From Galactobacter valiniphilus (lineage in GTDB: Bacteria > Actinomycetota > Actinomycetes > Actinomycetales > Micrococcaceae): a stretch of DNA of 64,000 bases. Shown piece after piece: positions 24,180 through 63,435 of this stretch (its first letter is position 1; the number at the start of each line of letters is the position of its first letter). The notes under the pieces were generated by a model, which saw nothing but the letters and a program-made list of their open reading frames with translations, was not told the origin of the DNA and ran no database searches. The position numbers and the translations under genes were made by a program. The stretch spans positions 1-64,000 of the forward strand of contig NZ_QQXK01000018.1 of NCBI RefSeq assembly GCF_003575975.1, in the 5' to 3' direction.

Positions 24180-24508
24180 GAGCCTGCTTTCGTGCCGGGG
24201 GCCGCGGAGAGCGCGGCCTGCATAAGGGGTTGGTGTGGCGACTCTTCCAGGAAGCGGCGTGGCGTTTTTGTCCCCCGTCATGCGACGCGATGGAGCCCCT
24301 CCCAGCGGCGTCTCGGGGCGTCACGCGGCGTCGCTTTGGCCAGCATTCAGGCGGCGTTGACGCGCGGATCGTTGCGCCGGAGCCCACATGACGCGCGATG
24401 TCGTCACAGTCCCACCCCACCCGCCGCCGCCCGCGCTCCCGCCCGCGACGCGTCGTCGTGCCCCTTCAAGGGGCCAGCCGCTGGGTCTCGCCCCACCTCT
24501 TCCGGAAT
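24180..24508. other. Intergenic region upstream of the SBP operon
   Basis: No gene is visible. It should hold the promoter of the minus-strand SBP operon: a short GCCGCG..CGCGGC hairpin lies close to the start, and a TATGCA box near 24220 is a weak -10 candidate. I see no riboswitch that I can name. Confidence 0.4.
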
Positions 24509-24554
24509 CAAAAAATCGACGGGGGATCGTCGCTCAGACGATCCCCCGTCGATT
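24509..24554 (-). terminator. Strong rho-independent terminator of the adenylate cyclase gene
   Basis: Perfect 18-bp arms (AATCGACGGGGGATCGTC, 24514-24531, and its complement 24537-24554) with a 5-nt loop. On the minus strand the stem is followed by a run of T (24509-24515). Confidence 0.85.
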
Positions 24555-24600
24555 CCCGGATCTCGCGCGGGGCCGCAAGGCCTTTGCGGCGCAGTCGGCG

Positions 24601-49981: not shown

Positions 49982-50302
49982 GTGTACTCGGCCAATGGAA
50001 AGAACCGCGCTCACTCTGGTGAAGGCCACGGCGTCTCGAACGTCATCATCTTCGTGGTGCTGTTCGCCGTGCTGTGCGCCGGCTTCTACCTGACGAGCTT
50101 TGCCGACCTGTTCTCCCACGCCGCCGCGTGGTGGCCCATGATCGCCGTCATCGGCTCTGGCATCATCGCCTACGGCGTGGGCATGCACGTCTTCGGTCGC
50201 TCCGACGCCCACCCGGACCGCACGGCCAACGAGGCCGCCGCCGTCGCCGAGGTGGACGCGGAGTACGCGCAGGCGCTCAACGCCTCCGCCCGCAAGCACT
50301 GA
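49982..50302 (+). CDS. Small membrane protein, two helices
   Basis: Protein of 106 residues with two hydrophobic segments (VIIFVVLFAVLCAGFYL at about 20-36, MIAVIGSGIIAYGVGMHVF at about 53-71). The N-terminus is polar and the C-terminal tail charged (VAEVDAEYAQALNASARKH). No family is recognised. The GTG has GGAG upstream. It lies 42 nt after deoC and may be cotranscribed with the salvage operon; a terminator follows it. Confidence 0.7.
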   Translation: MYSANGKNRAHSGEGHGVSNVIIFVVLFAVLCAGFYLTSFADLFSHAAAWWPMIAVIGSGIIAYGVGMHVFGRSDAHPDRTANEAAAVAEVDAEYAQALNASARKH

Positions 50303-50327
50303 CGCTCGCTTTTTTGTAGCGCGTCCG

Positions 50328-50371
50328 CGAGGGCGCCGCACGCTCGGGTTTCCGAGCGCGCGGCGCCCTCG
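50328..50371 (+). terminator. Terminator after the salvage operon
   Basis: Stem CGAGGGCGCCGC/GCGGCGCCCTCG with inner CGCTCGG/CCGAGCG, followed by TTTGCGTTT. Confidence 0.65.
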
Positions 50372-50448
50372 TTTGCGTTTCCGCCCTGCCTGCGCGCCTG
50401 CCCTCCCGAGCGCGCCCTCCGCCCGCTCAGCCCGGCACGGTGCTCTCT

Positions 50449-50511
50449 CATCCCGCCTTTTTCGTTGAGTCCCGCACAGTCTGTGCGGGACTCAACGAAA
50501 AAGGCGGGATG
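50449..50511. repeat. 63-bp perfect palindrome beside the AbiEi-like pseudogene
   Basis: 31-bp arms (50449-50479 and 50481-50511) around one T. The core reads TTCGTTGAGTCCCG and its complement. A related element lies on the other side of the pseudogene at 51594-51652. Confidence 0.85.
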
Positions 50512-50516
50512 GGCAC

Positions 50517-51497
50517 TCAACGAAGGCGCGAGCGGCGAAGGGGATCCACGTCAACGCCGGCCCGCACGAGGCGCTCGCGGAGCACCTCCGGCCGCTGCAA
50601 GTCCTCGCTGGTCCAGCGCACGACGGCATTCGCTACCTGCAAGAGCTCCACTTGACGCTGCTTCTCCTTTCGAAGCACGTCCCAGGTGTTCCCCTGCCCT
50701 ACCAGGTCTGGGTCAAGGTACTTCCCTCGTCCGTCGAACTCTCCTGCGACCCCGGCCTTGCGCCACCAGTAGTCGGGGCGAACCAGGCGTCCGGAGGGAA
50801 CCACCAACTCCACCTGAAGTTCCGGCGGCTCCACGCCCAGCCGGAGCATGACGGCCCGGGACGCGGACTCGCCGGGAGATTCGCTGCGACCGTCGGCGAG
50901 CTTCAGAACGCCTTTGCCCTGCCGGCGCGAGGTCCCCTCAGGCATCGCCTCGATGGCCGCGAGGAGGGTGCCGTCAGAGATACCGAACGTGCCGCTCCGA
51001 AGCAGGGCATCCGCGAGGGGCAGCGCAATCTCCAGCGTGGTGCGGCCGAGCACTCGCGCAGCGGCGTGGGCCGCGGCGACGACACGAAAGTCACCGGCTC
51101 GCACGGTCTCGGGCGTCGGCAGATGAAGGTGCCCCACCGTCCTCGCGGCCGGCGGCACGTCCGGGTCAACACATCGAAAGGTCCGCGCCCGAACACCGGA
51201 AGCATGCGGCACCGTGGCCAGCGTCTGCACCTGTGGTGGGACGCGCCAGGCGGGCAGGCCCATGATGAACATGGCCGTCTCGCAACAGAACACGCTGCGT
51301 GGCGCCCGTAGCGCCTTGGCCGACACCGCGAGAGCGAAACGATCCCACGGGCTGGCACCGAGTCACTCATCGATGGAGACGTAGTACCCCGAGGTGAGAC
51401 GAACAAACTCTCCCCGTTCCCAGCGCCTCGACAGACCCGGTGACAAGGCGGCGTCGAGCAGTGCGGCGGGAACTCTAAGCGCGGTCGGCTGGATCAT
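50517..51497 (-). pseudogene. AbiEi-like/DUF559-like protein broken by a stop codon
   Basis: Reading from the ATG at 51497, the frame begins MIQPTALRVPAALLDAAL and runs into the N-terminal winged-helix region (RRWERGEFVRLTSGYYVS). A TGA at codon 45 (51363-51365) interrupts it, probably from TGG, since Trp is usual after the acidic pair. The same frame continues without a break for 282 codons: GASPWDRFALAVSAKAL, then PEVQ-type middle, then a C-terminal nuclease-like part with RPDYWWRKAGVAGEFDGRGK and VRWTSEDLQRPEVL. Such proteins are common in actinobacteria as AbiEi-antitoxin-like or DUF559 nuclease-like genes of unknown function. An internal TTG at 51326 could give a shortened protein. Long palindromes bracket the gene. 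Confidence 0.75.
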
Positions 51498-51593
51498 GCC
51501 GAGAGCATGCCTCACACCGCGCCGGCGTGCATGGCGTTATCCACAGGCCGACACCCAAGCGAGCCCCTGCAGGCGCTCCGATGCCCCCGCCGA

Positions 51594-51652
51594 TCCCGCA
51601 CTTTTCGTTGAATCCCGGACAGAATGTGCGGGATTCAACGAAAAGTGCGGGA
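51594..51652. repeat. Second long palindrome, upstream of the AbiEi-like pseudogene
   Basis: Perfect 24-bp arms (51594-51617 and 51629-51652) with an 11-nt loop; it shares TCCCGC, TTCGTTGA and TCCCG blocks with 50449-50511. The rest of the gap to mfd (51653-51805) is G-rich and holds no gene that I can see. Confidence 0.8.
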
Positions 51653-51805
51653 GGGAACGGTACACAGTCGCGGGTCGGCGTGGGGGCGGGACAGCACGAC
51701 GGCGGGAGGCCGGGTCATGCGGGCCGGTTTCGTTGGGCGCGAATCCGTTGGGCGGGGCGGGGCGAGTTCGACCGTGAGAAAGCGACCTTGCCGCGCCGCG
51801 CTGGC

Positions 51806-54800
51806 TCAGCGCTCCGGGGCCGGCTCCGAGGAGAAGATCACGTCGATGACGTGCTGCACCCACGCCAGCAGCTCCGAGTCCTCCAGCTTGGCCCCGCCCA
51901 CGCCCGACTTCTTGGGGAAGGGCACCAGCACGGAGTTCAGCGCCGGCTTCACCAAGGACCCCGGGAACATGCGCTTGAGGCGCAGCTGCCGGGACTCCGG
52001 CAGGTCCGCGGGCGCGAAGCGGATGAAGTTGCCCTGGGCGGCGATGTCGCCGAGCCCCGCCGCGCGCGCGGAGATCCGCAGCCGCGCGATGTCCACGAGC
52101 AGCAGCGCCGGTGTCGGCAGCGCCCCGTAGCGGTCCTCGAGCTCGTCGATCACCGAGAGCACCGCCTCCTCCGAGGCCGCGGAGGCCAGCTTGCGGTAGG
52201 CCTCGAGGCGCAGGCGCTCGCCCGGCACGTACTCCTCGGGCAGGTGCGCATTCAGCGGCAGCTCGATCTTCATCTCGGCCGGCGCCGTGGAGGCCTCGCC
52301 CTTGTAGTCGGAGACCGCCTCCCCCACGAGGCGCAGGTAAAGGTCGAAGCCCACGCCGGCGATGTGGCCGGACTGCTCGCCGCCGAGCAGATTGCCCGCG
52401 CCGCGGATCTCAAGGTCCTTCATCGCCAGCTGGTAGCCGGAGCCGAGCTCGTTGTGCGCCGCCACGGCCTTCAGGCGCTCGAGCGCCACCTCGCCCAGCG
52501 GCTTCTCGGCGTTCCAGAGGAAGTAGGCGTACGCACGCTCGCGTCCGCGGCCCACGCGCCCGCGCAGCTGGTGCAGCTGCGAGAGGCCGTACATGTCCGC
52601 GCGGTCCACGATGAGCGTGTTGGCGTTGGCGATGTCCAGGCCCGTCTCGATGATCGTGGTGGAGACCAGCACATCGAACTTGCGCTCCCAGAAGTCAACC
52701 ATGATCTGCTCGAGCCGAGACTCCGACATCTTGCCGTGCGCCACCGCAACGCGCGCCTCGGGCACCAGCTCGCGCAGCTGCCCGGCCACGGACTCGATCG
52801 AGGACACGCGGTTGTGCACGTAGAAGACCTGGCCCTCTCGCATGAGCTCGCGCCGGATGGCCGCCCCGACCTGCTTGTCGGTGTACGGGCCAACGTACGT
52901 GAGGACGGGGTGGCGCTCCTCGGGCGGGGTCGCGAGCGTGGAGGTCTCGCGGATGCCGGTCAGCGACATCTCCAGGGTGCGCGGGATGGGCGTCGCGGAC
53001 ATGGCAAGCACGTCCACGTCGGTGCGCATCTTCTTGAGCGCCTCCTTGTGCTCCACACCGAAGCGCTGCTCCTCGTCGATGATGACGAGCCCCAGGTCCT
53101 TGAACTGCACCTCGTTGGAGAGCAGGCGGTGCGTGCCGATCACGACGTCAACGGAGCCGTTCTTGAGCCCCTCGACCGTGTCCTTGGACTCGGCGGCGCT
53201 CTGGAAGCGGGAGAGCGCCCGCACGCGCACGGGGAAGCCCGCGTAGCGCTCGGAGAAGGTCTCGAAGTGCTGGCGCGCCAACAGCGTGGTCGGCACCAGG
53301 ACGGCCACCTGCTTGCCTTCCTGCACGGCCTTGAACGCGGCGCGCACGGCCACCTCGGTCTTGCCGAAGCCCACGTCGCCGGAGACGAGCCGGTCCATGG
53401 GGACCTCGCGCTCCATGTCGGCCTTGATCTCGTCGATCGTCGTGAGCTGATCCGGCGTCTCCACGAAGGGGAACGCCGCCTCGAGCTCGGCCTGCCATGG
53501 GGTGTCCGGCGCGTAGGCGTGCCCGCGGCTGGCCATGCGCGCCGAGTACAGGCGGATGAGCTCGCCCGCGATCTCCTTGACGGCCTTCTTGGCCTTGGAC
53601 TTGGTGTTGGCCCAATCGGAGCCGCCCATCTTGGACAGCGACGGCGTCTCGGCGCCCACGTAGCGCGTGATCTGATCCAGCTGGTCGGTCGGCACGAACA
53701 GCCGGTCGCCCGGCTGGCCCCGCTTGGAGGACGCGTACTCGATCACGAGGTACTCGCGCGAGCCGCCGCCGGCCTTGCGGGAGGCCAGCTCCACGAAGCG
53801 CCCGATGCCGTGGGCATCGTGCACCACAAAGTCGCCCTCGGTGAGGGACAGGGGGTCGACGGCGTTGCGTCGCCGTGCGGCGAGCTTCTTGCCTCCGCGG
53901 GCGAGGGCTGAGGAGGCCCGTCCGAGCACGTCGGCCTCGGTCAGGAAGCCAAGCTTCAGCTCGTCGAAGACGAAGCCGTGCCCGGCGGGCGCCTGCGTGA
54001 TCTCGATGAGCCCGGGCGTCGGCGCGCCGGAGACGGACTCCACGCGCTGGCACGGGATGTCCGCCTCGTGGAAGAGCTCGGCGAGGCGCTGGGCCGGGCC
54101 CGGGCCGTCGGTCACGAGCACCACGGACCAGTCATCCGCCATGCGGGAAGCGACGAAGGAGAGCATCTGCCCCACGTCACCCTTCCACGCCTGCGGCTCG
54201 CGCGCGGCGATCCGCTGGGTCACGCCCTCCTGCTCCAGCTCCTCGTCGCCGCCGAGCGACGTGAGCGTCCACCAGGCCATGCCCGCCGCGAAGACGTCGG
54301 CGCGGGTCTGCCCGAGCGTCGCGAAGCCGGTGTCGGCCGCCCCGGCCTGGCTCAGATCCACCGGCGCCTCGCCGCCGTCGGAGGCCGTGGACCAGGCCGC
54401 CTCGAGGAACTCGCGGTTCGTTTCGAGCAGGTCCTGGGCGCGCGAGGAGACCCGCTCGGGATCGGTCACGAGCGTCACGGAGCCGGCGGGGAAGAGCGAG
54501 GCCACGGGGACCAGGCGCTCCACGAGCAGCGGCGCGAGGGACTCCATGCCCTCCACCGCGATGCCCTGGGAGATCTTCTCCAGCATGTCGCGGCTGGCCG
54601 GCATGGAGTCGGCCAGGCGGCGCGCCGTGGAGCGCACGTGCTCGGTGAGCAGCATCTCGCGGCACGGCGGGCACGTGAGCTCGCGCAACGCCGCGTCCTC
54701 GCCGAGCAGCGAGCGCTGATCCGCCACCGAGAAGTAGGTCAGCGAGTCCACCTCGTCGCCGAAGAAGTCGATGCGCACGGGGTGGTCCTGCGTGGGCGGG

Positions 54801-63332: not shown

Positions 63333-63378
63333 CTTCCGCCCTTCCTCCCTCGCCTTCTCATCCTTCTACCGTTTCTTC

Positions 63379-63435
63379 ACCCTCCCGACGCCTCTGCACC
63401 GTCCCGGGGACGGTGCAGAGGCCACGAGCGGGTGA
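63379..63435. repeat. Palindromic repeat element, copy B
   Basis: Perfect 13-bp arms CCTCTGCACCGTC (63391-63403) and GACGGTGCAGAGG (63409-63421), with outer flanks TTCACCCTCCCG and CGAGCGGGTGAG that pair partly. The left flank GTTTCTTCACCCT is the exact complement of the right flank of copy A. Confidence 0.65.

Follow-up and report, generated by a model that had tools for sequence, protein, structure and literature searches.

The broken nuclease gene studied here and the two long palindromes around it form, in our reading, a one-gene cassette of a widespread REPtron-like actinobacterial system, in which a restriction-type nuclease would recognize and spread its own palindromes; we put the probability of this reading at roughly 60%. 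Our data show that the palindromes bracket the gene, are dispersed, vary together with the protein, and have been gained and lost between species, and that one cassette has replaced another. The same layout with other palindromes is present in about half of the related actinobacterial genes sampled, suggesting a family of selfish or mobile elements not described before.

The locus lies in the window, the whole 64,000-nucleotide stretch of Galactobacter valiniphilus DNA under analysis, with mfd on one side and an open reading frame for a 106-aa membrane protein, beside deoC, on the other. Two long palindromes around a broken gene had been described in an earlier note on this DNA, and both were confirmed (Table 1). 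The arms of the downstream palindrome P1 (2 x 31 bp) are 100% complementary around a center of 1 nt, and those of the upstream palindrome P2 are perfect over 24 bp and 96% complementary over 28 bp; 5 bases separate the stop codon from P1, and about 96 bases separate the ATG from P2. When aligned in register, P1 and P2 are 84% alike, and most of the differing arm positions are altered in both arms, which agrees with the compensating changes claimed earlier. Chance can be ruled out for this pair, because the window contains 6 occurrences of TTCGTTGA, where 0.5 would be expected, and only 1 of 2,000 random intervals was bracketed in this way. No Rfam model matched the palindromes at the gathering score; the only hits were sub-threshold matches to microRNA hairpins, a kind of match that perfect hairpins tend to give. 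Elsewhere in the window, a 59-bp near-palindrome at 63377-63435 (TCACCCTCCCGACGCCTCTGCACCG...) has a direct repeat at offset 19 and appears to be a solo member of another family, and a palindrome at 24500-24560 resembles, with about 77% similarity across 48 bp, the pair that brackets another nuclease gene of this genome (contig C19).

Table 1. Features of the cassette locus (window coordinates)
Feature	Position	Strand	Remarks
AbiEi-like wHTH + DUF559/Vsr-like nuclease gene	50517..51497	-	326 codons; ATG 51497, stop 50517; one in-frame TGA
In-frame TGA, codon 45	51363..51365	-	Trp in relatives (invariant W45 column, 20-member protein-family alignment)
SESPGES motif	50865..50885	-	Putative nuclease helix with conserved Glu
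GEFDGRGKY motif	50718..50744	-	Putative PD-(D/E)XK active-site strand
Downstream palindrome P1	50449..50511	no strand	63 bp, 31-bp perfect arms; 59-bp family core 50451-50509
Upstream palindrome P2	51594..51652	no strand	59 bp, 25+9+25; ~96 bp 5' of ATG
Outer arm-motif copy TCCCGC in P2	51594..51599	+	Inner copy TCCCGG begins 51613, exactly 19 bp on
Outer arm-motif copy TCCCGC in P1	50451..50456	+	Inner copy begins 50470, 19 bp on; longest run 6 at offset 19
Extra partial half-site TTCGTTGAGTGCCC	50511..50524	-	Adjoins P1, overlaps stop of nuclease gene

The window was compared with its own genome (G000) and with three sister Galactobacter species (G001, G002, and G003). The genome search revealed at least 22 full copies of the window palindrome family in G000, including the two in the window, and at least 9 copies in G002; a pattern search found none in two other Galactobacter species. 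The build of the copies is fixed at 25+9+25 bp (59 bp), with one 58-mer as the exception. Nearly all copies are extragenic, and most lie near the end of a gene, in many cases the 3' end, often beside ordinary terminators. The alignment of 31 copies starts with TCCCGC, which together with TTTTCGT and TCCCG makes up the near-invariant blocks of the family, while columns 7-8 and 16-19 vary in a way that tends to preserve complementarity (paired cells, 92.1%). Double changes in the arms numbered 39 versus 19.7 +/- 4.2 in shuffles, which ignore relatedness, and this covariation supports the selection on a symmetric structure that the earlier note had proposed. Among other families, the G001:C14 palindrome was found in 12 places of G001 and nowhere in its three sister species, an exact-pattern search of G003 gave two copies of the G003:C8 family beyond the bracketing pair, and exact-pattern searching for the G002:C84 family gave the bracketing pair and nothing else. 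A DUF3883-like gene is bracketed by two dispersed members of the G001:C14 family (L200 8811-8878 and 10419-10486, G001:C13). The idea that the palindromes carry other genes as cargo was not adopted; other close pairs flank ordinary genes.

By comparing orthologous sites, we found several copies common to G000 and G002 and absent in G003, and others present in G000 only. One site has the form of a near-bare insertion, reading GACGCTTCCC/TGCCCGACGGC in G003 and showing similar flanks around the 59-mer in G000. In G002, a palindrome sits in frame inside a patatin-like gene (L093 4812-4870) that is uninterrupted in G003, and in G000 the 5' part of the patatin-like gene is deleted up to the palindrome (L042 4979-5037, G000:C15), a loss that could stem from breakage or recombination there. 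No clear target duplications were seen at the orthologous sites or beside the inverted repeats, where divergence is too high to judge. At the mfd-deoC site itself, the flanks are about 94% (G002) and 90% (G003) identical to those of the window, and the cassette proteins share 37% identity between the window and G003 and 52 to 55% between G002 and G003. The G002 cassette is bracketed by its own 59-bp pair (TCATCCGCAC..TTTTGCACCC) and the G003 cassette by another (TCACGGCG..TTTCTCACGG), both with the 25+9+25 build and both unrelated in sequence to the window pair. That one site carries different proteins, each with its own palindrome pair, bears out the earlier suggestion of a one-gene exchange cassette with palindromes as its ends, and the empty site that was to be sought exists in G001, where only a short spacer, with no gene or cassette, lies between mfd and deoC. 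The word "non-autonomous", also used in that suggestion, does not suit the cassette, which encodes a nuclease likely acting on the palindromes, and is better kept for the solo palindromes. In three other loci (L305, L306, and L293), at what is apparently the same chromosomal site, the element has opposite orientations relative to its neighbors between species, with inverted repeats of 77 to 90 bp.

Homologs of the cassette nuclease were found in 190 of the 346 sampled genomes of the class. In 60 homologous Micrococcaceae loci, a strict detector (a pair of similar palindromes, each at most 350 bp from its gene end) recognized bracketing in 14, compared with 1 of 2,000 random 920-bp intervals from genomes of the same family; 40 of these loci and 158 of the intervals had a long palindrome on one side or both. 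An alignment test, which required the two flanks to resemble each other in direct as well as in inverted orientation, was positive in 29 of 63 members of the family set, in 13 of 25 other actinomycete loci, and in 13 of 19 loci fetched after the test had been fixed. The total of 55 bracketed genes among 107 homologs across Actinomycetes stands against 2 of 1,200 controls, these being random intervals rather than genes matched for position. About half of the homologs have no recognizable palindrome pair. Palindromes are shared between proteins of at least 79% identity, and sharing is no longer clear at about 67% identity or less; the low score of the closely similar pair L139/L140 arose only because the comparison had taken a terminator in place of the L139 palindrome, and the palindromes of this pair are in fact 85 to 88% alike. 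In G000, six more paralogous nuclease genes lie on contigs C11, C19, C22, C33, and C44, and four of them, on C11, C19 (at 12.3 kb), C22, and C44, are each flanked by their own matching pair of palindromes.

Although palindrome sequences are locus specific, the arms of 33 families have in common a direct repeat with its two copies exactly 19 bp apart. The summed longest match at this offset was 136 versus 56 +/- 5 in shuffles (z = 15.8), a formal count made after the offset had been spotted by eye in some of the 33 families; offsets 18 and 21 gave nothing and offset 20 a weak echo. A later held-out set gave z = 8.4, partly from one tandem-repeat locus, and the repeat is absent from control hairpins of the same genomes. 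In other actinomycete lineages, the palindrome lies inside inverted repeats of roughly 55 to 90 bp with outer tips TGATCAYGTT, and this tip occurs at both ends of 8 loci and once in 400 kb of control DNA. In the flanking repeats at L174, L286, and L308, the arm motif is repeated in tandem, a pattern that expanding arrays of binding sites might give.

The gene is broken, as had been claimed, by a single TGA, and its AbiEi-like and DUF559-like assignment, also proposed earlier, has weak Pfam matches and motifs in its favor. The window protein aligns over its full length with the two sister-species proteins from the same chromosomal site. Invariant residues in the 20-member alignment follow the order S..E-S-x-x-R ... 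D-x-x-W ... E-x-D-G-x-x-K-Y ... E-x-x-R, and are read as those of a putative PD-(D/E)XK nuclease of the Vsr/DUF559/MTES_1575 type, a fold suggested by the motifs and weak Pfam scores. At the N terminus, the AbiEi_4 DNA-binding domain (PF13338) matched the window protein with an E value of 0.089 and the relatives with 3e-5 at best, below the curated cut-off; PF04480 and PF18741 gave weak matches in some relatives only. None of the Pfam and NCBIfam models matched the tight homolog group, and neither set placed a transposase domain, Y1 included, in the cassette gene. AlphaFold, run on the single read-through sequence without an alignment, reached a pLDDT of 38, too low for use, and a PDB profile search returned nothing meaningful. 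Searches of plasmid and phage collections were negative for the cassette at the DNA level and at the protein level, and viral contigs contained no relative.

In the mechanism that we propose, the N-terminal wHTH domain would read the arm motif, present twice per arm 19 bp apart, with protomers arranged symmetrically over both arms. The binding sites of Rv2827c, an AbiEi relative, consist of 23-bp inverted repeats with a 13-bp gap and span 59 bp in total (PMC7319586), a geometry that fits such a reading of the palindrome. The C-terminal PD-(D/E)XK-like domain would cut or nick DNA at the palindrome, and break repair or strand transfer would then copy the palindrome, sometimes the whole cassette, to new sites; protein and palindrome would diversify together, and cassettes would replace one another at a fixed site. 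Binding, cutting, and movement by the nuclease are predictions from sequence. Because the window gene is broken, the dispersed palindromes of G000 would be relics or be served by another copy. Counting against the nuclease as mobilizer are this broken gene, the G002 genome, which keeps many window-family palindromes yet has another cassette at mfd-deoC, and the G002:C84 family, which lacks dispersed exact copies, as well as the lack of clear target duplications, the weak Pfam scores behind the nuclease fold, and the share of homologs, about half, in which no pair was recognized.

Alternatively, the palindromes may be operators, the AbiEi-like protein repressing its own and other genes via the 59-bp sites and the nuclease-like domain serving another purpose, for example, defense. 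AbiEi-type antitoxins do bind inverted repeats in their own promoters, those of Rv2827c having the same 59-bp span (PMC7319586), and the position of P2 about 96 bp 5' of the ATG would suit this role. We nevertheless consider it unlikely, since a matching copy also lies 3' of the gene in about half of the loci, most solo copies neighbor the end of a gene, often the 3' end, copy positions vary among close species with one copy inside a gene, and the inverted tips of other lineages resemble element ends. Another scenario is a homing-type drive, in which the nuclease cuts cassette-free sites and the cassette is copied in by repair, leaving palindromes as leftovers of gain, loss, and exchange rather than as mobile units. 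The replacement of cassettes at one fixed site with conserved flanks agrees with homing, and homing enzymes are known among the Vsr-like nucleases (the EDxHD family); however, homing to one site leaves dozens of gene-free dispersed palindromes and the near-bare insertions unexplained, and we give this scenario only a slim chance. Defense or self-marking, with the nuclease attacking incoming DNA and the chromosomal palindromes acting as anti-targets or storage sites, seems very improbable. AbiEi-like and restriction-like domains are common in defense proteins and PADLOC returned a weak AbiEi match, but there are no partner genes, the bracketing layout and inverted tips would be unexpected, and separate palindrome families for each paralog within one genome suit selfish diversification better. 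Plain transcription terminators or ordinary gene-end hairpins unlinked to the gene are hardly credible, because although most dispersed copies are close to gene ends, 50200-51900 contains no T-run and no terminator-like site, ordinary terminator hairpins adjoin the dispersed copies, and the 19-bp repeat is absent from control hairpins. The earlier note would have taken palindromes at many gene ends, unlinked to cassette-like genes, as a sign of such terminators; they do lie at many gene ends, but this build is tied specifically to the one nuclease family.

The reading of a nuclease that spreads its own palindromes can be set against several known systems. The AbiEi/Rv2827c antitoxins of type IV toxin-antitoxin systems have an N-terminal DNA-binding domain of the type that the cassette protein may carry (PF13338, weak in the cassette) and inverted-repeat sites of similar span (PMC7319586), whereas the cassette has a C-terminal nuclease-like domain and sites on both sides of the gene as well as dispersed; no AbiEii/DUF1814 toxin gene adjoins the cassette gene, whose neighbors are those named above. 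With the DUF559/MTES_1575/Vsr-like nucleases, including the EDxHD homing endonucleases, the cassette shares the C-terminal motif E..R..D..ExDGxxKY and weak Pfam matches, and the literature searched gave no earlier link between DUF559/Vsr-like nucleases and palindromes. Rickettsia palindromic elements and MITEs are likewise dispersed palindromic units that can sit in frame inside a coding gene (once here), but the units described here are mostly extragenic and linked to a specific nuclease gene family. As in a classical insertion sequence, terminal inverted repeats match at both ends of the cassette, with shared tips in some lineages, yet a known transposase domain is absent. The open literature, with subscription papers outside its scope, yielded no earlier description of a nuclease-palindrome system and nothing relevant that linked REPIN/RAYT to Actinobacteria or Vsr to palindromic repeats.

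The closest parallel in logic seems to be the REPtron (RAYT/TnpA-REP with REP/REPIN), which, like TIRtrons, has a single gene bracketed by palindromic repeats (PMC3733652, PMC8266576), and whose repeats are also dispersed between genes, with enzyme and repeat apparently co-diversifying. However, the REPtron enzyme is an HUH/Y1 transposase and that of the cassette a putative PD-(D/E)XK nuclease with an AbiEi-like domain, and REPs are 20 to 40 bp and GTAG tagged, whereas the cassette repeats are near-perfect palindromes of 52 to 75 bp with a 19-bp internal repeat. The HUH/Y1 transposase (PF01797) had no match in the whole G000 genome, control genomes being positive as expected, and the 31-copy alignment has neither a GTAG nor a CGTC tag at the foot of the stem. 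The system would therefore resemble a REPtron without being one, having no Y1 transposase in the genome and no REP hallmarks. Every known element family tested has some defining feature that this system lacks; whether it makes a new class of mobile or selfish element, common across Actinomycetes, in which an AbiEi-like reader with a restriction-type nuclease propagates its own long palindromes and gives REP-like families and replaceable specificity cassettes, is in our judgment evenly poised. REP-like palindromes are common in bacteria, the engine proposed to spread them is an HUH-type REP transposase, and CGTC REPs have been reported without a dedicated transposase (PMC3733652). A nuclease-linked system as widespread as this one would supply a second REP-spreading engine and explain what a large set of hypothetical AbiEi/DUF559-like proteins does, with dozens of protein-palindrome pairs on hand for learning and testing the rules of recognition.
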